Positions 22,123 to 64,000 of a stretch of DNA of 64,000 bases are shown here, one piece after another. How positions within the stretch are numbered: the first letter of the stretch is position 1; each line of letters starts with the position of its first letter. The notes under the pieces are model-generated. The model saw only the letters and a program-made list of their open reading frames with translations. It was not told where the DNA came from and made no database searches. The stretch is taken from assembly GCA_947175295.1 (NCBI GenBank), contig CAMWMK010000001.1, positions 1 through 64,000 on the forward strand, written 5' to 3'. The stretch is from an uncultured Porphyromonadaceae bacterium. Lineage in GTDB: Bacteria; Bacteroidota; Bacteroidia; Bacteroidales; Muribaculaceae. Position numbers and translations under genes: made by a program.

Positions 22123-22138
22123 CATTATGCAACCAATC

Positions 22139-24085: not shown

Positions 24086-24119
24086 TGGAGTATAAACTAA
24101 CCTTACTGTAAGAAAACTT

Positions 24120-26957: not shown

Positions 26958-26969
26958 CAACCCGACAAA

Positions 26970-28751: not shown

Positions 28752-28775
28752 CATTCATAAATTAACTGAAACGAC

Positions 28776-49000: not shown

Positions 49001-50024
49001 TCCCGTCAGTTGAGGGGAATATAGTCTCTGTCTTGACGGATGGGGCCGTAGGGATTTCCCTGAAATTAAAAAGCTCCGGAGCCGTTGGTTGCATAGCGAG
49101 TCCCCCCTTTCGTGTGCCTGTCCATATATTGCCGTCTCGGTCTTCAAGCATGTCGAGTATTCCCTCCCCTTTTAGTCCGGCGTAGCTATCTTCAGGATAC
49201 ATGGTATCGTCCTCCATCCTGAAGACACCGTTTTCCAATGTATGGATCAGTATGTTTCCTTTGGAGTCTGTAAGGAATTTGATGTTGCTCCATCCCTGCG
49301 TGCCGTCAAGATGCCTGAACTCCTGTTTTGATGCGTCCCATAGATATATGTCAGACAGTGTCGACACATATAGGTTGTTGTTGCGGTCGTATGCGATGTC
49401 ATGTACAGCTTTTGGGAAAACCGTCGAGTAAAGTTTATTGAGGTTCTTGTCCAATGCCAGGAGTCGGCCGTCTCTTGCTCCTATCCATATTCGGTTGAGT
49501 GGATCCATCTTTATGAGATGGGAATATTTGGTCCCGATGAGTCGGTTGAGCGATTCAAGGGGTGTGGCTTTCATCGTTTTTGTGTCGACCGAATAGGTTC
49601 CGAAGCCAGCGCTGACGATAAGGAGTTCATTGTCGCTTCTCTGAATGATTGATCTTACTGATAGTGGATGTGTTTCCGGAAATGCCACGCTCTCGAATTT
49701 TCCGCTACCTTGCTCATATCGCTGCAGACCTTTCCCCGAACCTACCCATAGGTTTCCTTCCGCATCGTTAAATAGAGATTCCACGATATTGCTTTTAAGA
49801 GAAGTGGAATCTTCGGGATTGTTGGTGAAGGTGACGTTGGTCCATCCGTCGAATCGGTTGAGGCCGTTGTCTGTGCCGATCCATAGGAATCCTTTGGAGT
49901 CCTGTATGATATGAGTTATTTCGCGTGATGTCAGATTGCGCAGGTCATATCTGACGAGGGCTGATATCTGCATTGCAGACACCATTGTTAAGATAAGCGA
50001 GATGAGAATTCTGACATGGGTCAT
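46080..50024 (-). CDS. Hybrid two-component system sensor/regulator (HTCS 3)
   Basis: 1314-aa HTCS. Signal peptide (MTHVRILISLILTMVSAM); propeller blades (GFLWIGTDNGLNRFDG, GNLWVGSGKGLQRYE) to about residue 650; Y_Y_Y domain; membrane helix about 740-768; HisKA with His790 (AHELRSP); HATPase_c (NLIGNALKFTPDGGS, DTGSGIP, GFGIGLNL); receiver with Asp1096 (IVSDIMMP); AraC-type C-terminus (SPSEYIAKETG). All phosphorelay residues are intact. It is divergent from the second xus locus and upstream of a GH43 on its own strand, so these are its probable targets. It resembles HTCS 2 in architecture, but the ligand is unknown. Confidence 0.94.
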   Translation of the reverse strand: MTHVRILISLILTMVSAMQISALVRYDLRNLTSREITHIIQDSKGFLWIGTDNGLNRFDGWTNVTFTNNPEDSTSLKSNIVESLFNDAEGNLWVGSGKGLQRYEQGSGKFESVAFPETHPLSVRSIIQRSDNELLIVSAGFGTYSVDTKTMKATPLESLNRLIGTKYSHLIKMDPLNRIWIGARDGRLLALDKNLNKLYSTVFPKAVHDIAYDRNNNLYVSTLSDIYLWDASKQEFRHLDGTQGWSNIKFLTDSKGNILIHTLENGVFRMEDDTMYPEDSYAGLKGEGILDMLEDRDGNIWTGTRKGGLAMQPTAPELFNFREIPTAPSVKTETIFPSTDGKGIAVALSNWSIMVFDHDLNHKATFQSKGRVTSSCTTSNGHILLGYDDGRIMRYSEHGPELLDRISSKDILAIAEDNSGRLYASISGEGLKYRNSEGKWISVTEATAMATPAHLGNDWISVIAPGYSGEVWLGHFNGIDIFNPDTNRFTENNSVKTLRSHIVYDILPAKDKTIWIGTNNGLYHLFPDEDRMDHYGPVQGMPGNIICGIEQANNGDIWCTTNNGLSRIRYADNKTVSYLTGNGLGERDYRKGMLLRTSGDKLFAAGFKGLTAFYPDAINDTRPLSPPILTRINLSSRNEGNTEISYADSDKDISAEVLLNYFQNTFSLEFSTFDFLNSGSICFEYRIPSLNKEWHINPPGDNKVVCNYMEPGSYILEIRATDNGQTSPATSILIRILPPWYLTIWAKTVYAIVILLITATVWYVIRRYRQQRRKEEMAEEKFKMLYNFAHELRSPVTLITSPLTSLIREEKDENKANTFRMIQRNGYRITNLVNQMLDVRRIEKGQMNLLFSETDLKEYIGLIIDEFRLQAETRRIDLSFSAPDGRIDAYIDPDNFDKVIVNLIGNALKFTPDGGSIDVTLRKTTGPDGKEQALVEVADTGSGIPPENLKHIFDRFYQVDRKSNGFGIGLNLSKMLVDMHQGTIRAFNRNDGSGARFDVTLPLGRAHLKDKDIRDTPDIETPKRYIEADESMALPEEDNCRKGNHSHRILIADDDDEIRNYLKKELGNSYKVITASDGEEAYAIALEKNIDLIVSDIMMPKSDGFELLRKIRSNADTAHIPIILLTTSEDFDTRMSGWEKGADAYLTKPFRIEELRQLCASLISGRIRLKGRFSHGEKIEGNIDKVELKGNDELLLERITKAINENIGDSEFGVEELAESVGLSRVHLHRKMKALLGLAPRDFLKSVRLKSAAEMLLKRNTNISQVGYSVGFSSPGQFSESFKKYYGCSPSEYIAKETGDDAAPVKENAADVAD

Positions 50025-50050
50025 GATGAATGGCTGTATGGTTACGTCTG

Positions 50051-50081
50051 CAAAGGTAACATTTTATTTTGACTCCTCAAA
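50051..50081 (-). promoter_or_regulatory. Promoter of HTCS 3
   Basis: On the minus strand a -33 TTTG (50081-50078) and a -7 box TACCTTTG (50058-50051) are separated by 19 bp, the textbook Bacteroidetes spacing; the start codon at 50024 lies 27 bp downstream. Confidence 0.75.
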
Positions 50082-50138
50082 GTCCCCTGCGTCCTGAAAA
50101 TATTGCAGAAAGGGGTGAAACACAACAAAAAGACCTCT

Positions 50139-50168
50139 ATGTTACATTTGCCGTAAAGTATGTAACAT
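50139..50168. promoter_or_regulatory. ATGTTACAT/ATGTAACAT dyad, candidate operator
   Basis: Perfect 9-bp inverted repeats with a 12-bp gap (arm spacing 21 bp, two helical turns), about 58 bp upstream of the HTCS 3 -33 element. The TGTAACAT core recurs at 46065-46072 before the GH43 of the same strand. Confidence 0.4.
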
Positions 50169-50373
50169 GTCTTATGAAGCTCTTGGCTGTGTGCGTAGGT
50201 CCGGTATGGTTACGGTGGAATGGGAGGAAGACTGTGAGGGCTGGGAAGGAGATTGCGGGTAGGATGTCCGTGATATGGCCTTTTATGTAAGGTAATGTAT
50301 GGTTTGTATGGATTTATATAAGAATGCAGGAAAGTTTTTGTTTAGGATAAGATGTTGATATTCAATATGGTGA

Positions 50374-50382
50374 TTACGGATT
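50374..50382 (+). promoter_or_regulatory. TTACGGATT element of the second xus locus
   Basis: TTACGGATT lies exactly 98 bp upstream of the -7 box (50472). The same 9-mer lies 98 bp upstream of the -7 box of the first xylan operon (17050 and 17148). Candidate shared activator site. Confidence 0.5.
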
Positions 50383-50471
50383 TGTATTAATTTTGGAGAT
50401 TTTTCCCGGTATGTGATACATAATGCGCACCATTTGAATCATAGAGTAAACCGCAGGATGACGATTCGACG

Positions 50472-50479
50472 TAACTTTG
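50472..50479 (+). promoter_or_regulatory. -7 box of the second xus locus
   Basis: TAACTTTG matches TAnnTTTG, about 80-90 bp before the susC start. There is no -33 element at normal spacing, as expected of an activated promoter. Confidence 0.55.
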
Positions 50480-50557
50480 TGGCCACAAAACCGAAACATC
50501 AGAGTTTGGCTTGCACCGAATCTAACGACCATGAAATTTCCATTAACAATCTAAATA

Positions 50558-53500
50558 ATGACAGCGATGAAAAATGATCACAGACTGCTTCATTGCATTG
50601 CTTTGTTGCTAATCTTCATCATGACTTCAGCCCTTGGCGCGAGAGCCGACACAGTCAAGGGTAATGTGACCGACGACACCGGAGAGCCGCTCATCGGCGT
50701 GACCGTTATGGTGGTCGGTCAAAAGGGCGGCACAGTGACCGACCTTGACGGCGACTACTCGATAGAAGTGGCCAATCTGGGAAAGGCTGAGCTACGCTTC
50801 ACCTATGTTGGTATGGAGACCCTGACCGTGAAGGTCAATTCCCGCCGGCAGGTGAACGTGGAGATGAAAAGCGCAGACTCCACACTTGATGAGGTTGTGG
50901 TGGTAGGCTACGGACAGCAGAAGAAAGCTTCCGTCGTAGGCGCTATCACGCAGACTTCCGGTAAGACCCTTGAGCGTGCCGGAGGTGTCTCCAGTGTGGG
51001 AGCCGCTCTCACCGGCAATCTTCCCGGTGTGATCACCATGGCCTCGTCAGGTATGCCCGGCGAAGAGGATCCGCAGATCATCATACGCTCGGCATCCACT
51101 TGGAACGGCAGTGATCCCCTTATTCTCGTCGATGGTATCGAGCGCGATATGGCCTCCGTGGATATCTCTTCAATAGAAAGCATATCTGTGCTTAAGGATG
51201 CCTCCGCTACTGCCGTATATGGCGTGAAGGGCGCCAATGGCGTGATCCTCATCACTACCAAACGCGGCAGTGAAGGCAAGGCGGTAGTCACGGCAAAGGT
51301 CAACATGACCGCGAAGGTTGCCTCGAAACTCCCCGCTAAATTCGATGCATACGATACGTTCTATCTGATGAACAATTCCATCGAGCGCGAAGCCGCGCTC
51401 AACGACAAAGGCTGGGGCGACTACACTCCGGCTGCCATTATCGATAAATACCGCAATCCTGCTGACGCCGAGGAATGGGACCGTTATCCCAATACCGACT
51501 GGGAAGACGCCCTCTTCAAGAAAAGCGCCTTATCCTACAATGCTTCCGTGTCGGCATCCGGAGGAACGAAGCTTGTCAGATATTTCGCTTCTGCCGATTT
51601 CACCCACGAGGGCGACCTTTTCAAGCAGTATGACAACCACCGCGGCTATAAGACCGGATTCGGATACAACCGTATAAATGTACGCTCCAATCTTGATTTC
51701 TCACTGACGAAGACTACCGAACTGACAGTAAACCTCTTTGGCTCTAACGCCACCCAAAAGACTCCATGGGACTACAACGGCGATGGAAACTCCTACTGGG
51801 GCTCCGCCTATAAGTCAGCTCCTGATGCTATGCGTCCGATCTACTCAAACGGCATGTGGGGATGGTATGCTCCCCGCGACGCCGACGTGCCCAACTCGGT
51901 AAGGATACTGGCGACAGGCGGTGATAAGACCTCCACCAACACCCGTATAAACAGCGACCTCGCATTGGTGCAGAAGCTTGACTTCGTGACAAAAGGACTG
52001 AGCTTCCGTGCAAAACTGGCTCTTGACTATAAATTCCTGGAGGAAAACAGAGGTATCAACGACCAGTATCACGAAGGTCAGCTTTATTGGGTCAATCCTA
52101 CCGACGGCAGCCAGCATCCAAAGAATCCTGATCCGCAGACAGGCCTTGATGTGACCGTAAATCCCATTCTCTGGGGTCATCAGGCGGGTGCAGTGAATGT
52201 CAATCAAACATTCAGAAGGGTCTATTACTCATTCCAGTTCGACTATAACCGTTCGTTCGGCCAGAATGAGGTCAGCGCACTCGCTCTTTTCAGCCGTGAG
52301 AAGACCACAGGCGGCAGCTCTTTCCCGGTATACCGCGAAGACTGGGTGTTCCGCCTGACTTACAACTGGGCCTACCGATATTTCGCTGAGTTCAACGGTG
52401 CTTATAATGGATCCGAGAAGTTCGGTCCGAAAAACCGCTTCGAGTTCTTCCCCTCCATGTCGATCGGATGGATGCTTTCCAACGAGCCTTTCATGGAATG
52501 GGCTCGCGCAAACAACTTGCTTACCACCTTGAAAATCCGCGGATCGATTGGTAAGGTCGGAGACGACCATGCCGGAGACCGCCATCTTTATCGGACCCAA
52601 TACAGCTATGGGGGCAACATCCAGATGGGAACCATCAATCCTCAGAACTCTCCATATACCTTCTACATCATCTCTCGTCTCGGCAATGAGAATATCTCAT
52701 GGGAAAAAGTTGAGAAGCAGAACATCGGTGTCGACTATTCGTTTATTGGAGGCATGTTCGCAGGTTCGGTCGATTTCTTCCGCGACAAGCGTACCGACAT
52801 CATCCTGACAGGAGGCGACCGCACATCCATTCCCTCATACTTCGGAGCGGAAGCCCCTACGGCTAACCTCGGCCGTATGGACAGCCACGGATACGAACTT
52901 GAACTCCGCTTCAACAAGCAGATAGGCAGGAACATGCGAGTATGGACCAATCTCAGTATGACGCATGCCACCAACGAAGTAAAATTCCGCGACGACCCAG
53001 CCCTAAAACCCGATTATCAGAAATACGCAGGCCATGAGTGGGGACAGGTGACGAGCTATATCGACCACGGCAACTTGACTTCATGGGATGATGTGCTCGG
53101 AAGTACTGTCTGGAACACCGGCAACGACTTCAAGCTCCCGGGCGACTACAACATCATCGACTTCAACGGCGACGGCGTGATCAACACCGAAGACAAGGCT
53201 CCCTACGGATATTCCACAACTCCACAGAACACCTACAACGCTTCGGTAGGATTCGAATGGCGCAACTGGAGCATCTTCGCTCAGTTCTATGGAGTCTCCA
53301 ACGTAATGCGCTACGTGAAATATCCTACTTTCCGCTCCACTGCCCACGTGGCTTACGACGAGGGTGAATACTGGACTCCCTTCAATGGTGCATATCTCCC
53401 TCAGCCACGCTGGGGAACCACCATCGATGAATGTGCCGACGGAACACGCTATCTCTACGACGGCTCCTATATCCGCTTGAAAAACGTTGAGATATCCTAT

Positions 53501-53677
53501 GAGTTCCAAGGAAGATGGATGGCTAAGGCCGGTCTTAAGTCACTGCGCCTATACGTCAACGGCAACAATCTCTTCATGTGGACAAAAATGCCCGACGACT
53601 GTGAGCGTGGCGGTTCCGGCGACGGTGTGTATCCTTCCTTCAAACGATTCAATGTCGGCATAGACCTGACCCTCTGA
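50558..53677 (+). CDS. SusC-like TonB-dependent transporter, second xus locus
   Basis: 1039-aa outer-membrane transporter. Signal peptide from the ATG at 50558 or the one at 50567 (MKNDHRLLHCIALLLIF), CarboxypepD_reg domain (VKGNVTDDTGEPLIGVTV), TonB-box-like DEVVVVGYG, plug (ALTGNLPGVITMASSGMPG, KGANGVILITTKRG) and barrel ending GIDLTL. It is strongly similar throughout to the protein at 18952 (shared VVVGYGQQKKASVVGAITQT), so the two arose by duplication or are recent paralogues. It heads the second xus-type locus, divergent from HTCS 3. The imported sugar is presumably a xylan-derived oligosaccharide. Confidence 0.92.
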   Translation: MTAMKNDHRLLHCIALLLIFIMTSALGARADTVKGNVTDDTGEPLIGVTVMVVGQKGGTVTDLDGDYSIEVANLGKAELRFTYVGMETLTVKVNSRRQVNVEMKSADSTLDEVVVVGYGQQKKASVVGAITQTSGKTLERAGGVSSVGAALTGNLPGVITMASSGMPGEEDPQIIIRSASTWNGSDPLILVDGIERDMASVDISSIESISVLKDASATAVYGVKGANGVILITTKRGSEGKAVVTAKVNMTAKVASKLPAKFDAYDTFYLMNNSIEREAALNDKGWGDYTPAAIIDKYRNPADAEEWDRYPNTDWEDALFKKSALSYNASVSASGGTKLVRYFASADFTHEGDLFKQYDNHRGYKTGFGYNRINVRSNLDFSLTKTTELTVNLFGSNATQKTPWDYNGDGNSYWGSAYKSAPDAMRPIYSNGMWGWYAPRDADVPNSVRILATGGDKTSTNTRINSDLALVQKLDFVTKGLSFRAKLALDYKFLEENRGINDQYHEGQLYWVNPTDGSQHPKNPDPQTGLDVTVNPILWGHQAGAVNVNQTFRRVYYSFQFDYNRSFGQNEVSALALFSREKTTGGSSFPVYREDWVFRLTYNWAYRYFAEFNGAYNGSEKFGPKNRFEFFPSMSIGWMLSNEPFMEWARANNLLTTLKIRGSIGKVGDDHAGDRHLYRTQYSYGGNIQMGTINPQNSPYTFYIISRLGNENISWEKVEKQNIGVDYSFIGGMFAGSVDFFRDKRTDIILTGGDRTSIPSYFGAEAPTANLGRMDSHGYELELRFNKQIGRNMRVWTNLSMTHATNEVKFRDDPALKPDYQKYAGHEWGQVTSYIDHGNLTSWDDVLGSTVWNTGNDFKLPGDYNIIDFNGDGVINTEDKAPYGYSTTPQNTYNASVGFEWRNWSIFAQFYGVSNVMRYVKYPTFRSTAHVAYDEGEYWTPFNGAYLPQPRWGTTIDECADGTRYLYDGSYIRLKNVEISYEFQGRWMAKAGLKSLRLYVNGNNLFMWTKMPDDCERGGSGDGVYPSFKRFNVGIDLTL

Positions 53678-53710
53678 ATCAAGGGTGTCAGTATATTTTT
53701 CTAACGATTC

Positions 53711-55582
53711 ATGAAATTGCAGATTATGAATATCTCTAAATACATAATAACGCTGGCTCTTGTCGCCGCATCAATAGGCGCGACTTCCTGCTCCGACTAT
53801 CTCGACAAGGCTCCCAACAGCGACATAGATGAGTCGGTTCCATACCAGAACTTCCGTAATTTCCAGGGATTCGTGGAGGAGCTTTACGATCGCATCCCGG
53901 TTATCTCCAACAACGAATACCACACTACCTTCAATTATGGCGAGGAAGACTATTGGGAGCCGCAGGAGACACGCCTGTTCGCCCGCAGCGTTGACTACGG
54001 CGACTTCTGGGGATTCACCACTTGCTACTATTCATATCCCAACACATATGATGATCCTAAAAACAACCCACGCCGCTACAAGGCAAACCTCTGGGAAAAC
54101 GCCTGGTATGCCATAAGGAAGTCCAACATAGGACTCTCCAAGCTTGATGGTCTTGTAGACGCAACTGCTGAAGAACGCGACCTTATCGAGGGTCAGCTTT
54201 ATTTCTTCCGTGGACTGTTTCATTATCTCGTAATGGAATGGTGGGGAGGTGTACCCTATATCGACCGCGCTATCGGACCGGACGAGACCATCACGCTGCC
54301 ACGGGAGACGTGGCAGGCCTGCGCTGAGAAATGCGCGGCTGATTTCCAGAGGGCATCGGAGCTGCTTCCGGTTGACTGGGACAGTACTGCCGCAGGAAAG
54401 GCCACACTCGGCAACAACAACATGCGCGCCAACAAGATCATGGCGCTCGCCTACAAGGGAAAGGTGCTTCTATGGGCAGGAAGCCCCCTTATGAACTGGG
54501 ATTCCCACGAGCGAAACAACGCCTATGCCGTCTACGATGAGGATTTCTGCAGGCAGGCCGCAGAGGCCCTCGGACAGGCTCTGAAGCTGACAGAGCAGAC
54601 CGGACGCTACTCGCTACTTCCCATAGACCGCTTCAACGACCTTACACTCGTGTATAACTCAAAGGCTCTTCCCGGCGGCACTGAGACCATACTTCAGGAG
54701 AACATCCGCGACTATAGCGGTCGCTGGTCTTGGAACATGAACACCGACTTCCGTCCGCAGACGCATATAAGCGCAGGTGTCAAGTGCTGGCCTACAGCCA
54801 ACTATTCCAACTATTTCGGTATGGCAAACGGCTATCCGATCGAGGATGCAGCCGTAAAGGACAGTGAGGCCGGATATGATCCCGAATACCCTTGGCGCAA
54901 CAGAGATCCGCGTTTCTACAAGACATATGTATTCGACGGCGAATTCTGTGGCGAAGGTGGTCAGGGACTTGAGGCTACTCTCTTCACCGGCGGAGCGGAC
55001 CGCGAAGGGGCTAATCCGCAGAAGGGTTGTTATACAGGTCTGTTCAATGCCAAGCTCTCCCTTAAGAACTGCCATAACGGCAATGTCCGCGACCAATGGG
55101 CTTGCGTGCTTTCGCTGATGCGTCTTGCCGATGTATATCTCCTTTATTCCGAGGCTACGGCAGTGGGATATGGAGTGAAGCAGGCTTCTTCGGCTTATGG
55201 CCGCACCGCAGAGGATGCGATCAATGTAGTCAGAGACAGGGCGCAGGTGGGGCATGTCTTGCCGAAGTTCACTGATTCCAAGGACAGTTTCCTCAGTGAG
55301 ATCCGCCGCGAACGAGCCGTTGAGCTCGCATTCGAGGGAATGCGCTTCCACGATCTCCGACGATGGATGCTCATCACGCAGCGTCCTTATACGCTGAAGA
55401 CTGCCTTTCAGTTCGACAGAGGTCCTGGATTCTCTCAGAATTCTACCGAAAACAAGGTGCTCAACCTTCGTGAAGAGGTTTTGCGTGAGCGCAATTTCAC
55501 AAGCCGCCATTATTGGCTTCCCCTTCCAAATAAGAACGACACATACCTCTACGAGGGTTTCGAACAGAACCCCGGTTGGTAA
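53711..55582 (+). CDS. SusD-like surface lipoprotein, second xus locus (first pair)
   Basis: 623 aa; an alternative start at 53726 (MNISKYIITLALVAAS) gives a tighter lipoprotein signal. Lipobox ATSC followed by SDYLDKAPNSDIDE, acidic and surface-type. SusD motifs: RDLIEGQLYFFRGLFHYLV, IRRERAVELAFEGMRFHDLRRW and terminal EQNPGW. Clearly paralogous to the XusB-type protein at 22139. Forms the lid of the preceding SusC. Confidence 0.92.
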   Translation: MKLQIMNISKYIITLALVAASIGATSCSDYLDKAPNSDIDESVPYQNFRNFQGFVEELYDRIPVISNNEYHTTFNYGEEDYWEPQETRLFARSVDYGDFWGFTTCYYSYPNTYDDPKNNPRRYKANLWENAWYAIRKSNIGLSKLDGLVDATAEERDLIEGQLYFFRGLFHYLVMEWWGGVPYIDRAIGPDETITLPRETWQACAEKCAADFQRASELLPVDWDSTAAGKATLGNNNMRANKIMALAYKGKVLLWAGSPLMNWDSHERNNAYAVYDEDFCRQAAEALGQALKLTEQTGRYSLLPIDRFNDLTLVYNSKALPGGTETILQENIRDYSGRWSWNMNTDFRPQTHISAGVKCWPTANYSNYFGMANGYPIEDAAVKDSEAGYDPEYPWRNRDPRFYKTYVFDGEFCGEGGQGLEATLFTGGADREGANPQKGCYTGLFNAKLSLKNCHNGNVRDQWACVLSLMRLADVYLLYSEATAVGYGVKQASSAYGRTAEDAINVVRDRAQVGHVLPKFTDSKDSFLSEIRRERAVELAFEGMRFHDLRRWMLITQRPYTLKTAFQFDRGPGFSQNSTENKVLNLREEVLRERNFTSRHYWLPLPNKNDTYLYEGFEQNPGW

Positions 55583-55615
55583 ACATTACGTCTCACATTT
55601 TTATATGAATCATCA

Positions 55616-58429
55616 ATGAATACTAAATTTCATATAGGCCTGACGGCTCTCGCTCTTTCGCTCTTCATCTTTCCGGCCTGGGCGGCAGACGAGACGCAGG
55701 ACAGCTTGGTAAACATAGCTTTCGGCAAGATTGACAGGAGAGACGTGATCACTGCCTCATCATTTGTCAACATCAGCGATATAAGCAAAAAGAACGCCAA
55801 CAACAGTCCGCTTTCTGACGTAGCTACCCATGTAGGAGGCTACAACGGCAATATTTGGGGGCAGGCACCTCTGGTGCTCATCGACGGTGTGCCGCGTGAT
55901 GCGTCGCTCGTAAAGGCTTCGGAGGTGGAAAGCGTCTCTATCCTTAAGGATGCGGCCGCCGTAGCCCTCTACGGTAGTCGGGGGGCTAAAGGAGTCGTAC
56001 TCATCACTACGAAAAGGGGCTACGTGGCTCCCATGAAAATCGATGTGCGGGCAAACGTTGGAGCTATGCTTCCGAAGTCATATCCGAAATATCTTGACGC
56101 GGCCACATACATGAGTCTCTACAATGAAGCTTGTGCCAACGACGGCAAGTCGCCGCTTTATGACCAGGCTACAATCTACAACACTGCGATTGGTACGAAT
56201 CCCTACAGATATCCGGACGTGGATTTCTATTCTTCCGACTATCTGCGCGATTTCGTGACGACGGCCGACATCACAGGCGAAGTATACGGCGGAACGGAGA
56301 AGACAAAGTATTATCTGAACTTAGGTGTGGATTACGCCAACGACCTCATTAAGTACGGCGAGCACCATAAGTCAAATACATTTAACTTCAATGTGCGCGG
56401 CAATGTCGACATGACTATTGCGAAATGGCTCACCGCTACCACCAATGCCGCCATCATTGTAAGCGATAGTTATAGTGGCCGTGGAGATTTCTGGGGAGGT
56501 GCGGCTAACCTGCGTCCCAACTGGTTCTCACCCTGGCTTCCTGTGAGCATGATGGATCCGAACAATGCATCTATTCAGGACTACATCAATACGAGCACCC
56601 ATCTTGTAGGTGGACAGTATCTCCTTGGCGGTACTACTTCCGATCAGACAAATGCTTTCTCCGAGGCGTTGGCTGCAGGATACACGCGTCAGAAATACCG
56701 TAAGTTCCTTTTCGACCTTACCTTGAACGCCGATCTCTCCGGCCTTACCGAGGGTCTCTCTTTCAAGGCCGCCTATAGTGTGGACTACAACGCCCACTAT
56801 TCCGAGGCTTATGCACAGCCTTATGCTGTCTATAAGCCTACATGGGCCAATACCAATGGAAAGGATATCATCATCGGTCTTGACAAGATTAACGAGGACA
56901 AGTCGTCAACTAATGAGTACGTAGGACAGTCTACCTATCATCAGACAATGATGTTCAGCGCTCAGTTCGACTATGCCCGTTCATTCGCCGAAGCCCACAA
57001 CGTCAACGCAACTCTGGTAGGATGGGGTTATCAGCAGCACTTCTCCGCCGATGGCGGACATTCGAGCGAAGGCGGCTACCATCGTCCGAGCAATGTCAAT
57101 GCAGGCTTGAGATTGGACTATAACTACCGTCATCGCTATTATGCCGACCTCACGGGCGCATTTGTCCACTCCTCCAAGCTTCCCGAGGGTAGGCGTAACG
57201 CGTTCTCTCCGGCAGTCTCGATAGCATGGCGCCTATCCAACGAGGATTTCATGAGTGGATCGCGTACATGGCTCGACGACCTCAAGATTATGGGCTCCTA
57301 TGCCAACCTCCATCAGGATATAGACATCAGCGACTGGTATCTATACATGGCTGACTACCAGTTCTCCCCATCGAGCGGTTGGTTTCAGTGGGCCGACGGT
57401 ACCGTAGGTGGGTCTACCTCCACTTCAAAGAGAGGTTCCAACGACAGGCTTTCATTCATAACCCGCAAGGAATTTCGCTTTGGCCTCGACGCATCGCTCT
57501 TCGACGGTCTTCTTTACTTGAATGCCAACTGGTTTAATCAGACCACCAACGGCCTCCTTACCCAGGGTTCCAGCACGCTCTATCCATCATTCTACAATTC
57601 AGGCACAGGCAACTTCCTTCCCTATATCAACTACAACAGGGATGAGCGTACCGGTGTGGACTATACGTTCAATATCAAAAAGGAGTTCGGCGACTGGAAA
57701 TTCTCTCTCGGTCTCACTGGAATGTACTTTGATTCAAAGGCTAAGCTACGCGACGAGGTGTGGGAGGAAGACTATCTTTACCGGCAGGGTCACGCTCTTG
57801 ACGCTTCCTGGGGATATATATGCGAGGGGTTCTTCCAGTCTGAGGAGGAGATCGCTTCTTCTCCAAAGCAATCTTTCGGCGGTACCGTACGCCCCGGCGA
57901 CCTTAAGTACAGGGATATAAACGGTGATGATGTGATAGACTCTAAAGACCAGGTGGATCTTGGAAAGATGGGATGGAGTTCCTCTCCTTATGTCTACGGA
58001 CTCAACCTGACGGCACAATACAGGAAATTCACCCTTTACCTTTCCGGTACCGGCGTGAGCGGCAGTAAATTCTACAAAAACGACAGCTACTACTGGCTAC
58101 GAGGTACAAGCAAATACTCCGAGATGGCTCTCGGACGCTGGACTCCGGAGACTGCGGCCACTGCTTCCTTCCCGCGCCTGACCACTGAAAACGGCGACAA
58201 TAACTACCAGAACTCTACTTTCTGGATTGCCAAGGGGGATTGCTTCCGCCTCGACAACCTCCAGCTAACGTATGACATCACTCCGGGTAAGGGTTTTATC
58301 CACGGCATAAGCTTATATGCCGGTGCCTACAATCTCTTTACTATCTCTAAGGAGCGTGAGCATCTGGAACGAAGCCTCTATGGTCCGCAGTTCCGCACCA
58401 TCTACATAGGTTGCAAACTTAACATGTAA
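55616..58429 (+). CDS. Short SusC-like transporter without CarboxypepD_reg domain, second xus locus
   Basis: 937 aa. Signal peptide (LALSLFIFPAWA), short linker VNIAFGKIDRRDV, then plug (PLVLIDGVPRDASLVK, YGSRGAKGVVLITTKRG) and barrel ending GCKLNM. Like its paralogue at 24120 it has no CarboxypepD_reg domain and no EVVVVGYG TonB box, confirming that this is a fixed feature of the second SusC of the pair. Confidence 0.9.
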   Translation: MNTKFHIGLTALALSLFIFPAWAADETQDSLVNIAFGKIDRRDVITASSFVNISDISKKNANNSPLSDVATHVGGYNGNIWGQAPLVLIDGVPRDASLVKASEVESVSILKDAAAVALYGSRGAKGVVLITTKRGYVAPMKIDVRANVGAMLPKSYPKYLDAATYMSLYNEACANDGKSPLYDQATIYNTAIGTNPYRYPDVDFYSSDYLRDFVTTADITGEVYGGTEKTKYYLNLGVDYANDLIKYGEHHKSNTFNFNVRGNVDMTIAKWLTATTNAAIIVSDSYSGRGDFWGGAANLRPNWFSPWLPVSMMDPNNASIQDYINTSTHLVGGQYLLGGTTSDQTNAFSEALAAGYTRQKYRKFLFDLTLNADLSGLTEGLSFKAAYSVDYNAHYSEAYAQPYAVYKPTWANTNGKDIIIGLDKINEDKSSTNEYVGQSTYHQTMMFSAQFDYARSFAEAHNVNATLVGWGYQQHFSADGGHSSEGGYHRPSNVNAGLRLDYNYRHRYYADLTGAFVHSSKLPEGRRNAFSPAVSIAWRLSNEDFMSGSRTWLDDLKIMGSYANLHQDIDISDWYLYMADYQFSPSSGWFQWADGTVGGSTSTSKRGSNDRLSFITRKEFRFGLDASLFDGLLYLNANWFNQTTNGLLTQGSSTLYPSFYNSGTGNFLPYINYNRDERTGVDYTFNIKKEFGDWKFSLGLTGMYFDSKAKLRDEVWEEDYLYRQGHALDASWGYICEGFFQSEEEIASSPKQSFGGTVRPGDLKYRDINGDDVIDSKDQVDLGKMGWSSSPYVYGLNLTAQYRKFTLYLSGTGVSGSKFYKNDSYYWLRGTSKYSEMALGRWTPETAATASFPRLTTENGDNNYQNSTFWIAKGDCFRLDNLQLTYDITPGKGFIHGISLYAGAYNLFTISKEREHLERSLYGPQFRTIYIGCKLNM

Positions 58430-58444
58430 TTATCCGAAAGCAGT

Positions 58445-60202
58445 ATGAAAAAACTATTATATGCAATGGTGGCTGTAGCTTCCCTCGGACTCACAAGCTG
58501 CGACGACCTCTTTGAGCCTGCCAAGCAGAACTTCAAGGATCTAAGCCAGATGGAGACGGAGCCTGACTTCGCTATGGGATTCCTGACAAGAGCCTATAGT
58601 TCCCTCTCCGGCTACTATACCAATACGGAGTATGCCACAGACAATGCCGTAGTGAACCAGAACAGTGAAGGTTTCCGCACTATGGCTACCGGCGGGTGGA
58701 CATCGTCTTCCTGGACCGGCATCAACGAATGGTCGGGATCTTATGCAGGCATACAGTATATCAACCAGTTTCTCTCCAAAATAGACGATGTGGAGTGGAG
58801 CGCCGATCCCGAGAGGCGTGAGATGCTTTCTGTGCGTCTACGCGGAGAGGCCTACGGTTTGCGTGGAATCCTCCACTATCAGCTTCTGCGCGCCCATGCC
58901 GGTTATGACGATGCCGGTCAATTGCTTGGTGTGCCGTATCTTGAAAGCTATCTCGGTGCCAACGACGACATGAATGCCGCTATGGCGCGTCCTTCTTTCA
59001 AGGAATGTGTAGAGAAAATAAAGGCCGACCTGAATCGTGCGATAGAGATACTTCCTCTCGACTATGAGGATATGGACGAAGTGCCGGCCAAATACACTCA
59101 ATATACTGATGATGTGGCTATTTACAACCGAACGATGGGATCGCACTTCCGCCAGCTTGTCAGTGGACGTATCGCTCAGGCATACATCTCACGCCTCAAT
59201 CTTCTCGCTGCAAGCGACGGATTCGGGAATTCCATTTCCTGGACGGAGGCGGCCGAGGCTTCGGCTGTCCTGCTCATGGAGAACAAGGGTATTGATGGCG
59301 TGAAGGCCGGTGCCTACGAGTACTATGTTGCCGGTATCGCCGACAATCTTCAGGAAGGCGTCAATCCCTCTGAGATCATCTGGCGTGAGAATGTGGCTGA
59401 CAACAACAATACGGAATCAGACAATCTTCCTCCAAGCCTCAACGGAAACGGCCGGATGAATCCCTCTCAGAATCTTGTCGACGCTTTTCCGACTGCAAGC
59501 GGATATCCCATTGGAATTGCCGACGACTACGATGCTGCCGATCCCTATGCCAACCGTGATCCCCGGTTGAGTGCCTACATAATCTACAACGGAAGCACTC
59601 GGGTCGGTGTCGACAATGTCACGGTCTCTACTGTTGCCGGTTCCACTGATGGTATCGGCGGCGTAGAACAGCGTTCTTCACGTACTGGCTACTACATGAA
59701 GAAGCGACTGCGTATGGACGTGAACTGCACGGCAGGTTCCACCACCACTAAGCCTCACTATACCCCCCGCGTGCGATACACCGAGATTTATCTCAACTAT
59801 GCTGAGGCGGCCAACGAGGCCTACGGACCAAAGGCCGACGGCGGCAATGGTTTCTCTGCCTACGATGTGATAAAAGCCATCCGTCAGCGTGCAGGTATCG
59901 GCGCTGCAAACGGTGACGCATACCTTGAGGAGTGTGCCGCTTCCAAGGAAAAGATGAGGGATCTTATCCGCAACGAGCGTCGCATCGAGCTTTGCTTTGA
60001 GAACTCTCGTTTCTGGGATCTCCGTCGTTGGAAACTCGACCTCAACGAAACCGTCAAAGGTATCGACTGGCAGGCTGACGGCACATATAAGATCATTGAT
60101 GTCGAGACGCGTGACTTTGAAGACTATATGGCCTATCCTCCCATTCCTCAGTCAGAGATACTTAAATACAGCAATCTCCAGCAGAACATGGGCTGGCATT
60201 AA
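58445..60202 (+). CDS. SusD-like surface lipoprotein, second xus locus (second pair)
   Basis: 585 aa. Lipoprotein signal MKKLLYAMVAVASLG with LTSC and acidic DDLFEP. SusD motifs RLRGEAYGLRGILHYQLLRA, YAEAANEAYGP, IRNERRIELCFENSRFWDLRRW, ending LQQNMGWH. Paralogous to 26970. Partner of the short SusC 15 bp upstream. Confidence 0.92.
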   Translation: MKKLLYAMVAVASLGLTSCDDLFEPAKQNFKDLSQMETEPDFAMGFLTRAYSSLSGYYTNTEYATDNAVVNQNSEGFRTMATGGWTSSSWTGINEWSGSYAGIQYINQFLSKIDDVEWSADPERREMLSVRLRGEAYGLRGILHYQLLRAHAGYDDAGQLLGVPYLESYLGANDDMNAAMARPSFKECVEKIKADLNRAIEILPLDYEDMDEVPAKYTQYTDDVAIYNRTMGSHFRQLVSGRIAQAYISRLNLLAASDGFGNSISWTEAAEASAVLLMENKGIDGVKAGAYEYYVAGIADNLQEGVNPSEIIWRENVADNNNTESDNLPPSLNGNGRMNPSQNLVDAFPTASGYPIGIADDYDAADPYANRDPRLSAYIIYNGSTRVGVDNVTVSTVAGSTDGIGGVEQRSSRTGYYMKKRLRMDVNCTAGSTTTKPHYTPRVRYTEIYLNYAEAANEAYGPKADGGNGFSAYDVIKAIRQRAGIGAANGDAYLEECAASKEKMRDLIRNERRIELCFENSRFWDLRRWKLDLNETVKGIDWQADGTYKIIDVETRDFEDYMAYPPIPQSEILKYSNLQQNMGWH

Positions 60203-60226
60203 TACTGCAATAATCTGATCAATCTT

Positions 60227-61261
60227 ATGAAACGTAAATTTATATTTCCCGCATCCCTTGCCGCACTGGCTTTGCTTTCAGGTTGCCATAACGGAGACAA
60301 CGAATTCTCCGATTTCGACTATCAGACAGTGTATTTTGCCAATCAGTACGGCATGCGCACCATAGAACTCGGTACTGACGAAAACGTTGACCTTACTTCC
60401 GACAACAATCATGAGGTAAGCATTGTCGCAGCCTGGGGTGGAGGCTACAGCAACAAGAAGAACGTGCTCATCGACTACGTGGTGGATCCTTCGATTGTTG
60501 ATGGATTCTACTTCAAGGATTCCGACCAGCTCGTTGAGGTGATGCCTTCCGACTACTATACTATCGACGCGAATCAGATCCGTATACCTTCAGGACAGAT
60601 CAATGGCGGAGTGAAGGTGCGTCTGACAGACAAGTTCTTCGCCGACAGAAAGGCAGTGGGCAACTGCTATGTGATTCCGGTGCGCATGACGGATGTATCC
60701 GGAGCCGACAGGATTCTTACCGGCACTGCAACAGAGGAAAATCCGGTGCTTACAAATGATGCTCATTGGTCGGTACAACCCAAGAATTTCATGCTTTTCG
60801 GAGTCAAGTTTGTCAATCCATGGCATGGCCAGTATCTCCGCAGAGGCGTAGATGACGCCTCTGTTGAAGGACAGGCATCCAGGATTGTCCGCCACAGCCG
60901 GTATGTTGAGAACGACGAGGTCGTGGACCTATCTACTTCCGCCTACAAGGAAGATGTGTTGCCTGTGACTGTAAAGGATGCTCAGGGTGCCGGACATACA
61001 GTGGATGTGGTGCTATCGTTTGCTGATGACAATTCCTGTACGCTTTCTTCCGGTACGGAGGGCGTAATGGTCTCCGGCTCCGGTAAGTTTGTGGCCAAAG
61101 GGGAGAAGCAGAGCCTCGGAGGCAAAGACCGCGATGCCATCTATCTGGACTATATCATGGATCTGCCAGGCCTAAATATGAAGCTTGGGTCGAAAGACAC
61201 TCTCGTGCTCCGTACCCGGAATGTCTACGGCGCCCAGGCGTTCAGCATTGAAAGAAAATAA
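60227..61261 (+). CDS. XusE-like surface lipoprotein, second xus locus
   Basis: 344-aa lipoprotein (LLSGCHNGDNEFSDFD, acidic after the cysteine). The DUF1735-like N-terminal domain contains YFANQYGMRTIELG and CYVIPVRM; the second domain begins after FVNPWHGQYLRRG. Paralogous to 28776 at every landmark. No catalytic motif; a surface glycan-binding role is inferred from its fixed place before a GH10-type gene. Confidence 0.82.
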   Translation: MKRKFIFPASLAALALLSGCHNGDNEFSDFDYQTVYFANQYGMRTIELGTDENVDLTSDNNHEVSIVAAWGGGYSNKKNVLIDYVVDPSIVDGFYFKDSDQLVEVMPSDYYTIDANQIRIPSGQINGGVKVRLTDKFFADRKAVGNCYVIPVRMTDVSGADRILTGTATEENPVLTNDAHWSVQPKNFMLFGVKFVNPWHGQYLRRGVDDASVEGQASRIVRHSRYVENDEVVDLSTSAYKEDVLPVTVKDAQGAGHTVDVVLSFADDNSCTLSSGTEGVMVSGSGKFVAKGEKQSLGGKDRDAIYLDYIMDLPGLNMKLGSKDTLVLRTRNVYGAQAFSIERK

Positions 61262-61280
61262 CCCTCAATAAATTGTAATT

Positions 61281-62921
61281 ATGAAAAAGTTGTTTATCTA
61301 CGCTCTGCCCGCACTTTCCTTGGCAATGGCTTCCTGTGCCGACGGCTATGAGGGTGATTTCAAGATGGACAAGCCGGAGAGTGTGGCTCTCGACGAGCGG
61401 ATTGCTTCCTATGCTGTGCTTCCGGAATATGCATCAAAAGCCGGTGTCTCACTTGGTGTGGCGGTAGATCCTTCTGACTTTGCGGCTCAAGGACTGGCCT
61501 ACAGTATCGTAAAGACAAATTTCAGCGAGGTGGAAAGCGCTGTAAGCATCACTCCGTCCGCTTTGATGACAGAAGAGGGTGCCTATGACTTCACTCCTCT
61601 TTCGGCTCTTGTCGAGACTGCCGGCAAAGCTGGAGTCAGAGTTTTCGGACCCGCTCTCTGTTCTGATGTCAACATATCGGCCTCTTATCTTAATTCTCTG
61701 CTTGCCGATGTAGTGATTCCTTATCAGCCATGGAACGAGGAGATATTGGTATATGATTTTGAGGATGACGCGGTAGGCACTCCCTATGCCTCGCAGAAGA
61801 AAGCCGCCGGAAGCGTAAATGTCGCTGTGATGGACGATCCTCTCAGCCAGCAGGGAAAGGTGCTTGGTGGCACCAAGTTGACTATGGATGTGCCACTCGT
61901 AGAAGTAACGCTTCCCGAGGGGTCGACCCTTGCCGATGTCTCGAGAGTGACTTTGAAATGCCTATTGCTTGAAGGCACTCCTACGTCCGCAAGGATTCAG
62001 GTAGAGGCTTCCGGTCTCAACGATAAGGCCAATCCTTATCTGAGCAAAGGCAGATGGGAGGAGTATATCTTTGATCTCTCAAACATTAAATTCAAGGAGG
62101 CCGAACTTAAGGTCAATAAATTCAAGCTTGCCGTTGGTGCTTATGGGTCAGGTATTAGCTGCTGCATCGACGACATCACGATACGTCTTGAGCATCCCAT
62201 CGGTGATGACACTGTAATCGTTAAGACTCCTGAGGAAAAGACCGGAATCATCCATGGTGAGCTCTATAGGTGGATCGATGGTATTACCGACATCTGTGCC
62301 GGTTCCGTAAAGGATTACGTCATCAAGGATCAGCCTCTCGAATCAGGAAATGCCGGGTTCCTGTGGAGTGATTATCTTGGTACTGAATATCTTGCAGATG
62401 TGCAGAAGGCAGTTGTTGCCAAAGTTGGAAGTGATGCTGTATTCTATGTCGGCCAGAACATTGCCGTCAGCGATGCAGTTGCGGCGGATGTGGACGCACT
62501 CAAGGCTGAGATTCAGACTCTCGAACGTCAGGGTGTGAAAGTAGATGGTGTCAGTATCGTACTCAATGCCTCATACTACCTTGACGCGTCGTCTCAGACA
62601 GCGGCGGAAGCCGGCACTGTGGCTTTAATCAGCAGCCTTGCATCGCTTGGCAAGCCGGTAAGGCTATCATCTCTTAAGATCAATGTGATTAATGAGAACG
62701 GCATGCAGGCCAACCCTGTCAATCTATCGGTAGAGCAGCGCAAGGGGATAGGGGAGTACTATGGCTTGATGATAAGCACATTCCTTTCCGCGCTTGGCGA
62801 CGACGCTAAAGGCATATCTTTCTCATCCGTGCTTAACACCCCAACGGACACGGCCCCTTGGCAGCAGAACGGCAACCGCTCCTTCGTCTACGAAGGTATA
62901 GTGAAAGGCCTATCCAAATGA
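61281..62921 (+). CDS. GH10-derived surface lipoprotein lacking catalytic residues (pseudoenzyme)
   Basis: 546-aa intact frame. Lipoprotein signal MKKLFIYALPALSLAM with SCADGYEGDF, surface-type. By position and sequence it is the counterpart of the surface GH10 at 29855: YLNSLLAD, GELYRWIDGI, GVKVDGVSI, and VEQRKGIGEYYGLMIS align with YGHTLLWHSQ-flanking, GRWIKGM, VTRIDGIGS and LEQHKAMGEYYRFII. Every active-site block is changed: LWHSQ to CSDVN, WDLMNEGL to YVIKDQPL (acid/base Glu to Gln351), QMHIS to VLNAS, ITELDMG to LSSLKIN (nucleophile Glu to Ser464), CHWCQT to SFSSVL. One beta-sandwich module (about 153-310) is inserted instead of two. It cannot be a normal xylanase; a glycan-binding role is inferred. 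Confidence 0.85.
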   Translation: MKKLFIYALPALSLAMASCADGYEGDFKMDKPESVALDERIASYAVLPEYASKAGVSLGVAVDPSDFAAQGLAYSIVKTNFSEVESAVSITPSALMTEEGAYDFTPLSALVETAGKAGVRVFGPALCSDVNISASYLNSLLADVVIPYQPWNEEILVYDFEDDAVGTPYASQKKAAGSVNVAVMDDPLSQQGKVLGGTKLTMDVPLVEVTLPEGSTLADVSRVTLKCLLLEGTPTSARIQVEASGLNDKANPYLSKGRWEEYIFDLSNIKFKEAELKVNKFKLAVGAYGSGISCCIDDITIRLEHPIGDDTVIVKTPEEKTGIIHGELYRWIDGITDICAGSVKDYVIKDQPLESGNAGFLWSDYLGTEYLADVQKAVVAKVGSDAVFYVGQNIAVSDAVAADVDALKAEIQTLERQGVKVDGVSIVLNASYYLDASSQTAAEAGTVALISSLASLGKPVRLSSLKINVINENGMQANPVNLSVEQRKGIGEYYGLMISTFLSALGDDAKGISFSSVLNTPTDTAPWQQNGNRSFVYEGIVKGLSK

Positions 62922-63011
62922 TTCTGTCGACTCTCTGCATTGTTTCCTCGACCTCCATCCTTGAAACAACTCTATAACAATACTATTTATTAACCTTAAA
63001 AAATTTTTCTT

Positions 63012-64000
63012 ATGGAATTTCATTATCTGAAATCCTTGTCAGCGGTTGCGCTGGCCGGCATTTTTGCAGTCAATGCATATGCCGAGACTCTCTCCGAAGA
63101 GTTTATCGTAGATTTCACTCAGAAGGAAGCTGGCTTCAAGCTTAACTCTTTCTGGGGCGGTCCTAACGACAACATGCAGGTAGTGGCTACCGATGAAGGC
63201 AATCTTCTGCTGATCAATGGTGTGACTATCGGTGAGGATGGAACTCCGGCAGTCAATGACGCAGGGTATCCATCTTGGAGCACAATGGCTCGCTATGAAG
63301 GTCTGACTCTTCCTTCGGGATTCAACTTCTCCAACGTGCTTCTGATTGAGGTGGAATACAAACCTACACAGCCCGACAATGTGCCTTTCGCGATTCAGCT
63401 CAGAAATGCCACCAATCCCCTCTATTATGCGGAGGAAGTGGCCGTAGATGAGTGGAATACACTGGCTTTCGACCCGTCTGAAATGACCGTGGGAGACGAT
63501 AATGCCCCTTACTCAGGCAATCTGTCGAGCTTCGATTTCTGTATGGGTGCCAACGGATCTTCCAACTACTACATCAAGCAGGTGACTTTCTATCTCGAGA
63601 AGGAAGTGACACAGCGTGAGAAAGACGAAGCGGCCCTTGACAAGTCTACTGCTAAGTGTGTTGAGTTTGATTTCGATGGTTATGAAGTGTCGGGTGAAGT
63701 CGATGGTGCTTTCTCTTCCCCCTATCTCGGCTCTAACGGCGGCGGTATCAACCGTCCTGATATGATTATAGACAAGGGGCCGGATGGCTACGACAACAAC
63801 TGCGCCCACATCATATATCAGGGCTGGACCCAGATCTTCATCACCGAGGCTGTTGTGGTTCCCGAAGGATACACATTCGACGATCTCCGTCTGGTGGAAT
63901 ATGATATCTATGAGACGGATATTCCCGGTGTAGACTATACCAAACCTGATGAGCAGGCTTCCGGCAGAAACGGCGCTCCCATCCTGAAGATGAAGGAATC
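63012..64000 (+). CDS. Secreted beta-sandwich protein, 3' end outside the window
   Basis: The open frame from ATG 63012 has no stop before the window ends (329 codons visible). Signal peptide MEFHYLKSLSAVALAGIFAV, cleavage near AYAE, no lipobox. Two beta-rich regions: about 25-195 (SFWGGPNDNMQVVATDEGN, ending YIKQVTFYLEKE) and about 215 onward (CVEFDFDGYEV, YLGSNGGGINRPD). The first has the look of a carbohydrate-binding sandwich. It takes the place that the free-standing CBM protein has in the first xus locus, so a glycan-binding accessory role is likely. A catalytic domain beyond the edge cannot be excluded. Confidence 0.7.
   Translation, partial: MEFHYLKSLSAVALAGIFAVNAYAETLSEEFIVDFTQKEAGFKLNSFWGGPNDNMQVVATDEGNLLLINGVTIGEDGTPAVNDAGYPSWSTMARYEGLTLPSGFNFSNVLLIEVEYKPTQPDNVPFAIQLRNATNPLYYAEEVAVDEWNTLAFDPSEMTVGDDNAPYSGNLSSFDFCMGANGSSNYYIKQVTFYLEKEVTQREKDEAALDKSTAKCVEFDFDGYEVSGEVDGAFSSPYLGSNGGGINRPDMIIDKGPDGYDNNCAHIIYQGWTQIFITEAVVVPEGYTFDDLRLVEYDIYETDIPGVDYTKPDEQASGRNGAPILKMKE

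Follow-up and report, generated by a model that had tools for sequence, protein, structure and literature searches.

A candidate GH98-type complex-xylan locus with a GH10 pseudoenzyme in an uncultured Muribaculaceae bacterium

Layout of the locus and its paralogous copy upstream

Within the first 64,000 nucleotides of contig CAMWMK010000001.1 from an uncultured Muribaculaceae bacterium (the window), profile searches identified at 46080-64000 a hybrid two-component sensor (HTCS), a SusC-SusD-SusC-SusD-XusE importer series, a GH10-like gene and a gene for a secreted protein. The contig (C1) runs on to 108,666 bp, past the window end at 64,000, and the following genes were considered:

44314-45936, minus strand: GH43 with a C-terminal GH43_C2 domain (Pfam GH43 1.5e-39, GH43_C2 1.1e-39)
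46080-50024, minus strand: HTCS (Reg_prop, Y_Y_Y, HisKA, HATPase_c, Response_reg, HTH_18)
50558-53677, plus strand: SusC-like TonB-dependent transporter, pair 1 (TIGR04056, 795 bits)
53711-55582, plus strand: SusD-like lipoprotein, pair 1 (SusD_RagB, 1.6e-39)
55616-58429, plus strand: SusC-like transporter, pair 2 (TIGR04056, 473 bits)
58445-60202, plus strand: SusD-like lipoprotein, pair 2 (SusD_RagB, 9e-49)
60227-61261, plus strand: XusE-type lipoprotein, BT_3987-like with DUF5627 (match to PDB 3n91, 8.2e-128)
61281-62921, plus strand: GH10 pseudoenzyme lipoprotein, a candidate surface glycan-binding protein (Pfam GH10, 1.3e-5)
63012-64000, plus strand: secreted two-domain beta-sandwich protein, first 329 of 482 aa in the window (gene ends at C1:64460)
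C1:64570-67743, minus strand: GH98, 570 bp beyond the window edge and convergent to the importer operon
C1:67981-78358, plus strand: two GH43-CBM6, GH31, GH95 and GH127, just after GH98

The HTCS and the importer operon are divergent, with 533 bp between them. The GH43 gene at 44314-45936 follows the HTCS gene on the minus strand after a gap of 143 bp, and the two are probably co-expressed. Each importer gene is paralogous to the gene in the same position of a first copy located upstream, with the SusC starts of the two copies 31.6 kb apart. In locus order, identities to these counterparts are 52% (SusC), 39% (SusD), 41% (SusC), 46% (SusD) and 43% (XusE). A recent locus duplication was ruled out, since the paralogs are only 39-52% identical; judged from this sequence divergence, the duplication is old. 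The XusE-type protein of the second locus also matches PDB 3n91 with a higher score than its first-locus counterpart (429.5 vs. 246 bits).

The first locus encodes GH10 enzymes that retain their catalytic residues, and we take it to be an example of the xus core (xusA-E and xyn10) of Prevotella and Bacteroides. The second locus shares with this core the order importer, XusE, GH10-type gene. However, the GH10 slot of the core holds an active xylanase with two CBM4 modules, whereas in the second locus it is occupied by a pseudoenzyme carrying a single inserted domain. A Bacteroidetes-type promoter consensus gave one match in the window, against a mean of 0.51 expected, i.e., chance level, and no match in L004.

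The GH10 pseudoenzyme and the enzymes past the window edge

Both catalytic glutamates of the GH10-like protein are gone, the acid/base residue being replaced by Q and the nucleophile by S. In total, all 12 cleft positions checked are replaced, i.e., both glutamates and 10 further positions that are invariant in 21 relatives. The fold itself is retained in the predicted model (mean pLDDT 75.8), whose barrel, formed by residues about 36-148 and 312-546, superimposes on the GH10 xylanase 1us2 with Z 21.8 (VIA) and an rmsd of 3.7 over 299 residues; the Pfam GH10 score is 25.1 bits against a cut-off of 22.1. Purifying selection on the protein is strong (mean dN/dS 0.076 over 15 pairs, for which dS is saturated). 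It looks like a binding protein, and with the whole cleft lost rather than the nucleophile only, the single beta-sandwich domain inserted at about residues 150-308 is predicted to have taken over ligand binding.

Conservation lends mixed support to the inserted domain being special. Its conservation exceeds that of the C-terminal half of the barrel in all five closest relatives and in G117, roughly matches it in G078, falls below it in G315, and is far below it in G130 and G191, both of which align poorly and have longer inserts. In the type B pseudo-GH10s described below, it is no better conserved than the barrel half.

Judging by the structure predicted for a close ortholog, the secreted protein encoded next consists of two jelly-roll domains that resemble CBM22 and CBM15 (Z about 10-11). 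This 482-aa protein and the GH98 are possible type IX secretion cargo. The 482-aa protein ends in a C-terminal tail also found on other, unrelated secreted proteins, and SprA, a type IX component, is encoded in the genome. Neither this protein nor the GH98 had a Pfam sorting-tail match at E 0.001.

Beyond the window edge, the GH98 of this genome retains the catalytic Glu/Asp pair (E145, D254) present in all 17 aligned sequences. It carries a C-terminal tail. It also lacks a lipobox, is convergent to the importer operon, and shares only 36% identity with the lipoprotein GH98s that relatives encode within the operon, so it does not descend from them directly in place. For both GH43-CBM6 proteins, the best solved relatives are annotated as xylosidases. 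The GH95 has 4ufc as its closest solved structure and keeps the Thr370/Asn372/Asn374 motif, and the excerpts of PMC4491172 link this Thr to L-galactose in a xylan-acting enzyme. The best solved relative of the GH127 gene product is 5opj, and its family is either GH127 or GH146.

An earlier note, drawn from the window sequence, had described a duplicated importer order about 31 kb away, a GH10 pseudoenzyme in the enzyme slot, a secreted beta-sandwich protein as the next gene, and a dedicated HTCS, all of which agree with the analysis above. Its claim that the locus has no recognisable enzyme does not hold, given the GH43 inside the window and the GH98, GH43-CBM6, GH31, GH95 and GH127 genes starting 570 bp past the edge; this false reading, caused by the window edge, is corrected here. 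An absence of enzymes holds only for the co-directional operon at 50558-64460, because the nearest enzyme gene, GH98, is convergent, and not for the locus as a whole. Catalytic genes just past the edge in the same operon, which the note had named as evidence against its reading, are there in substance though not to the letter, because the GH98 gene of this genome is convergent and hence outside the operon.

Likeness to PUL-XylL, distribution, and competing readings

Judged by family content and by the 3n91 and 4ufc matches, the nearest counterpart among known systems is PUL-XylL of Bacteroides ovatus ATCC 8483. With PUL-XylL as described in the excerpts of PMC4491172, the present locus shares two tandem SusC/D pairs, a 3N91-type lipoprotein, an HTCS, a GH10 that is inactive in B. 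ovatus and predicted to be so here as the next gene (in B. ovatus by locus number), and GH98, GH31, GH43, and a GH95 with the L-galactose Thr. The same excerpts describe BACOVA_03431, adjoined by BACOVA_03430 (3N91), as a surface-located GH10 that lacks activity but binds xylan; it has lost its nucleophile, has a disrupted -2 subsite, and belongs to a PUL with GH98, GH31 and GH95. The present locus differs in its Muribaculaceae host, in its convergent GH98 with a C-terminal tail and without a lipobox, in the additional two-domain beta-sandwich protein and GH127, and in the loss of both catalytic glutamates from the pseudo-GH10, compared to the nucleophile loss reported for B. ovatus. GH97, GH115, and esterase genes are here located in or upstream of the first locus, and the genes annotated at C1:17,000-78,400 include neither a GH30 nor a GH3; in the excerpts of PMC4491172, GH30_8 is a group-one member gene missing from group-two PUL-XylL loci. 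PUL 43 of Bacteroides xylanisolvens XB1A (PMC4855328) also shares two susC/D pairs, an HTCS, GH43s, GH95, GH115 and a GH10-type gene, but its GH10 (BXY_29300, with tandem CBM4) is an active xylanase, and it includes a GH5 and no GH98. In these respects it is closer to the window's first copy than to its second.

Across 247 family genomes, a full-length pseudo-GH10 and a GH98 were found in the same five. In a genus sample of 111 genomes, all 12 carriers of the pseudo-GH10 also encode GH98 (Fisher test, uncorrected for relatedness), and two further genomes (G299 and G307) have GH98 without a full pseudo-GH10; one nucleophile-less GH10 (L033, in G195) occurs in a genome without GH98. All four relatives outside the genus encode a lipoprotein GH98 within the operon, immediately after the pseudo-GH10, and sister loci are flanked by GH115 and acetyl-xylan-esterase genes. 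On gene content, the complex-xylan set of a dead GH10 binder and GH98 is thus also present in a rare subset of Muribaculaceae. A literature search covering few subscription journals found no GH98 xylan loci in Muribaculaceae and no paper for PDB 9h6f/g/h, and no GH98 was found in the excerpts of PMC7815789.

With a probability of roughly 80%, we consider 50558-64000 to hold the importer and binding-protein genes, one half of a GH98-type complex-xylan locus that works like PUL-XylL. From sequence, we infer that its target is a heavily decorated cereal-type xylan, and of the options raised in the earlier note, a differently decorated xylan is the one favored, as the locus carries the same GH98/GH95/GH31 combination as the complex-glucuronoarabinoxylan PUL of B. 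ovatus. The pseudo-GH10 would hold highly decorated xylan at the cell surface as a glycan-binding protein, its barrel serving as a scaffold and its inserted beta-sandwich probably providing the binding site, and the 482-aa protein would add secreted binding capacity. The GH98, which would be exported by a putative C-terminal sorting tail instead of a lipid anchor, could make the few backbone cuts that decorated xylan permits, after which the two SusC/D pairs would import large fragments and GH43, GH31, GH95 and GH127 would remove side chains in the periplasm, with ordinary GH10 xylanases supplied by the first locus. The gene set of an uncommon, experimentally established way of using the cereal xylans with the heaviest decoration is thus found in Muribaculaceae as well.

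The same genes could be read differently. A second importer that does nothing but scavenge fragments set free by neighbors or through the first locus, an option raised in the earlier note, with the downstream enzymes forming an unrelated unit, would fit the enzyme-free operon, the convergent orientation of the next gene, and the intact GH10 enzymes of the first locus. Yet enzyme genes begin 570 bp past the edge, GH98 accompanies the pseudo-GH10 cassette in every genome sampled with the full version (5/5 in the family, 12/12 in the genus), and it follows the pseudo-GH10 co-directionally in five of five type B genomes as well as within the operon of the four outside relatives, so that this reading is unsupported and improbable.

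Even less likely is that the GH10-like protein has remained an enzyme, with a changed mechanism or specificity: the retained fold, the strong purifying selection, and an acid/base Glu kept in four relatives are compatible with this, but the replaced cleft is not easily reconciled with it, and its B. ovatus counterpart bound xylans and showed no activity on them (PMC4491172, excerpts). A beta-galactan or host glycan as the target comes to mind because the first characterized GH98 enzymes were endo-beta-galactosidases, a family history also given in the excerpts of PMC4491172. We regard this as very unlikely as well, since both SusCD pairs, XusE and the GH10-fold protein have their paralogs in a xylan locus, and the xylosidase-like GH43-CBM6 relatives, the L-galactose-linked Thr of GH95, and the genes adjoining sister loci all argue for xylan instead.

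Two versions of the candidate binding-gene block

Behind nearly the same transporters, the genus harbors two old and unalike blocks. Version A comprises pseudo-GH10-A, the 482-aa protein and usually a 356-aa protein, while version B comprises pseudo-GH10-B, a protein of about 390 aa, and a second GH98. One breakpoint between the two lies directly behind the lipoprotein signal, the other where the convergent GH98 ends. Most flanking genes are 84-95% identical between A and B genomes, and the convergent GH98 is 76% identical.

The pseudo-GH10 and the genes after it therefore appear to be a block exchanged by recombination behind the same transporters. Tentatively, and with somewhat less than even odds, we propose an exchangeable surface-binding cassette, in which recombination, bounded by the retained lipoprotein-signal segment on one side and by the end of the convergent GH98 on the other, has swapped A and B, retuning in each strain which decorated xylan is captured while the transporter is unchanged. 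What is new here is the pair of versions with their breakpoints. If the swap holds, it would provide a natural experiment in which the transporter is fixed while surface binders and GH98 vary, making what sets glycan specificity in SusCD systems directly testable.

In the tree, A and B form one well-supported branch, yet very long branches part them. Type B as a fast-diverging copy of A within the genus was rejected, given these long branches next to flanking genes that are mostly 84-95% identical. The A and B pseudo-GH10s, together with the dead GH10s of G441 and G195 (on long branches), may descend from one shared loss of catalysis.

Gene layout and enzymes of the second xus locus

The window covers the first 64,000 of the 108,666 bases of its contig, CAMWMK010000001.1 (C1), and the second xus locus, read across that edge, comprises the following genes:

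44314-45936, minus strand (that of the HTCS): GH43, inside the window, 143 bp behind the HTCS gene
46080-50024, minus strand: HTCS regulator, divergent from the importer operon, with 533 bp between
Starts at 50558, 53711, 55616, 58445 and 60227, plus strand (opposite the HTCS): SusC, SusD, SusC, SusD and XusE
61281-62921, after XusE, divergent from the HTCS: GH10-like lipoprotein (pseudo-GH10)
63012 to C1:64460, crossing the window edge: secreted protein of 482 aa
C1:64570-67743, minus strand: GH98, next gene after that of the 482-aa protein
C1:67981-69375, plus strand: GH43-CBM6
C1:69397-70740, plus strand: GH43-CBM6
C1:70911-73370, plus strand: GH31
C1:73457-75967, plus strand: GH95
C1:75980-78358, plus strand: GH127

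Gaps of 33, 33, 15, 24, 19 and 90 bp separate the genes from the first SusC to the 482-aa protein, a spacing that fits a single operon. An earlier note on this DNA had described a same-order xus duplication with its own HTCS, and both points were borne out: each importer gene pairs one to one with the first copy (18952-29846) at 39-52% identity, the duplication being real and old, and the HTCS adjoins the importer operon divergently. The headline of that note, a locus with no recognisable enzyme, proved to be an edge effect. With enzyme genes from GH98 to GH127 beyond position 64000 and a GH43 behind the HTCS within the window, what stands is that the importer operon itself is enzyme-free, in a locus that does have enzymes. 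We consider it likely, at a probability of about 0.8, that, within a complex-xylan locus, this second copy is the arm for capture and import.

The best solved match of the GH95 is 4ufc, which we take to be BACOVA_03438, and the enzyme carries the T-x-N-x-N motif corresponding to Thr370, Asn372 and Asn374 of the 4ufc chain. The GH98, the only one found in this genome assembly, retains E145 and D254, aligned with the Glu and Asp of the GH98 structure 9h6f; both residues are kept in all 17 aligned GH98 sequences. Their spacing in 9h6f (106 residues, counted on the alignment) equals that of Glu361 and Asp467 in BACOVA_03433 (PMC4491172).

The closest known system is PUL-XylL, the complex-xylan locus of Bacteroides ovatus. 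Its description (PMC4491172) links the Thr and Asn residues of the GH95 motif to L-galactose, and presents the PUL-XylL GH98 as a surface endo-xylanase active on complex corn xylan only, the GH31 as an alpha-xylosidase, the GH95 as an alpha-L-galactosidase, and BACOVA_03431 as a surface GH10 that lacks activity but binds glucuronoxylan and corn xylan; in the same paper, BACOVA_03430 (PDB 3N91) bound none of the xylans tried. XusE of the second locus matched 3n91 far more strongly (429.5 bits) than XusE of the first (246 bits), which makes the second copy the one that resembles PUL-XylL. The first locus, which contains an active CBM4-GH10, a second GH10, GH97, GH31, esterases and GH43, is closer to a classical xylan locus. 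The second locus is of a kind already known, and represents a variant differing from PUL-XylL in host, in a convergent, tail-bearing GH98, in a putative extra binder and in an apparently exchangeable cassette. What makes it of interest is this apparent cassette exchange, together with a GH10 cleft stripped of all checked residues, and not the original enzyme-free claim.

The GH10-like lipoprotein and its association with GH98

The Pfam match of the pseudo-GH10 covers only an N-terminal GH10 piece (25.1 bits). Its predicted model (10 sequences, mean pLDDT 75.8, pTM 0.61) is a GH10 barrel split by one beta-sandwich, and superposes on Cellvibrio Xyn10C (1us2) over 299 residues (Z 21.8, rmsd 3.7). 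Catalytic residues were compared across alignments that included 17 dead GH10 rows. The earlier assignment of a pseudoenzyme to the enzyme slot is upheld at the level of sequence, the catalytic Glu pair being replaced by Q and S: the window protein shares with its six nearest orthologs a Q at the acid/base, the nucleophile being S or V. Four relatives outside the genus retain the acid/base E with N, N, N and D as nucleophile, and four proteins of type B, the second of two unalike versions within the genus, have N at both positions. All 12 cleft positions without variation among 21 CBM4-type GH10 relatives (20 for the last two, where one row ends early) are lost in the window protein; their subsite labels follow GH10 structures. 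Mean dN/dS across six genus copies was 0.076 (15 pairs; dS is saturated, at 1.5 to 2.4, for pairs with the window copy), next to 0.121 for the 482-aa protein, 0.045 for SusD2b and 0.049 for SusC2b, values at which the pseudo-GH10 is, to judge by substitution pattern, maintained and not in decay.

Among 247 family genomes, full-length pseudo-GH10 and GH98 above cut-off were each found in the same five (G000, G078, G117, G130 and G191; G012 fell below the cut-off and was left out). In the genus sample (111 genomes), type-A pseudo-GH10 occurred in seven genomes and type B in five, and GH98 in 14, including all 12 carriers. The other two are G307, 67% complete, and G299, which is 95% complete with two GH98 genes and hence a true exception. 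Fisher p-values were 1.4e-10 (family) and 2.3e-14 (genus), not corrected for relatedness. GH98 occurred in 7 of 393 order-sample genomes and, according to PMC4491172, in only 5 of 260 Bacteroidetes genomes. Full-length pseudo-GH10 was not found in five order-sample GH98 carriers (G354, G467, G619, G621 and G714), so GH98 can occur without it. A GH10-type protein was present in 6 of 11 stretches picked from order-level matches; five retain both Glu, and one, from another family (G441), is dead, with D at both catalytic positions, within a xus locus (L099:7146-19000). In G441 the dead GH10 is followed by a GH43, and a GH98 57-58% identical to that of the window lies on another contig (L100:640-3795). 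Coupling in the reverse direction is countered by the genome G195, in which no GH98 was found despite a nucleophile-less GH10-like protein (L033, contig C49; 519 aa; E at acid/base, N at nucleophile), possibly an independent pseudoenzyme.

Apart from one titled 'Paenibacillus sp.' (JAMPHR010000001.1), the records of named relatives were Muribaculaceae or 'Porphyromonadaceae'. The exception carries a Bacteroidota xylan locus and matches family genome G191, and its title appears to be wrong.

The 482-aa protein and its C-terminal tail

The 482-aa protein had no Pfam match at E 0.001 and no solved relative in a sequence search at E 1. The predicted model of an 85% identical ortholog (L060; mean pLDDT 76.5) shows two jelly-roll domains, in line with the secreted beta-sandwich protein proposed earlier. 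Its top VIA match was the CBM22 tandem 4xup (Z 11.3, yet rmsd 20.4 across both domains), followed by the Xyn10B CBM region 2wys (10.9) and the xylan-binding CBM15 1gny (10.4); since a complex I assembly protein, ephrin receptors and others scored nearly equally (Z 9-10), these matches give the fold, not the ligand.

Among the 247 family genomes, the body of the protein was confined to three, G000, G078 and G117, each of which also carries GH98 and pseudo-GH10. The final ~45 residues (last 45 codons of L004:1012-2457) are common to unrelated secreted proteins of the family, with some match in 63 of the 247 genomes, and may be a sorting signal outside the Pfam models tried. The same tail is found at the end of the neighbouring 356-391-aa proteins and, in G296, of the second GH98; the window GH98 has a related tail. 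Because the SprA translocon was also found in the genome, type IX secretion is a probable route of export.

Synteny and possible replacement of the pseudo-GH10 block

G117, G078, G130 and G191 share the order SusC-SusD-SusC-SusD-XusE-pseudoGH10-GH98, the GH98 being a lipoprotein on the same strand (the second SusD of G078 is missing from the listing, presumably masked by an overlapping frame); a relative of the 482-aa protein comes next in two of the four, and a GH127 is nearby in all. In type A, all three genomes with a long enough contig (G297, G298 and G315) have pseudo-GH10, 482-aa protein, a 356-aa protein missing from the window's locus, and convergent GH98. Type B (G295 and G296 examined in full; G302, G316 and G329 via match positions) has a different pseudo-GH10, 26-28% identical to type A, a different secreted protein, and an additional GH98 that is co-directional and precedes the convergent one; in three of the five genomes the contig also includes the convergent gene.

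Between G298 (type A) and G295 (type B), DNA similarity breaks off at pseudo-GH10 codon 43, the same point as against G296, and returns where the convergent GH98 ends. Protein identity between G298 and G295 runs from 94.9% (SusD) and 84.3% (XusE) to 27.8% (pseudo-GH10), then 76.0% (convergent GH98), 94.4% (esterase-like) and 92.8% (GH115). The first 38 residues are equal at 23-33 positions between the type-A and type-B proteins of the genus (12 pairs listed), but at just 7-10 between the G117 type-A protein and B; in the tree, A and B share a single supported branch (100/99), yet are mutually distant. Together, the breakpoints, shared first residues and distance are the traces expected if a gene block had been replaced downstream of a retained lipoprotein signal. 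Regulators seem to have been exchanged too: in G298 and G312 the HTCS fronting the locus resembles the one at 12659-16642 of the window (39-40%) more than the one at 46080-50024 (31%). Gene exchange in such loci has a precedent in the swap of GH98 for GH5_21 among B. ovatus/xylanisolvens strains, described in PMC4491172.

Elsewhere on the contig, the first locus encodes a free-standing CBM4-type protein (32157-33299) 38% identical to part of the adjoining GH10 (29855-32050); the matching part is presumably the CBM region inserted in that GH10. A GH88-DUF2264 fusion (7443-9755) lies upstream of that locus between a GH43 and a GH115, and a further SusC/SusD pair (C1:93097-102000) stands behind a pectinesterase-like gene and an AAA-ATPase.
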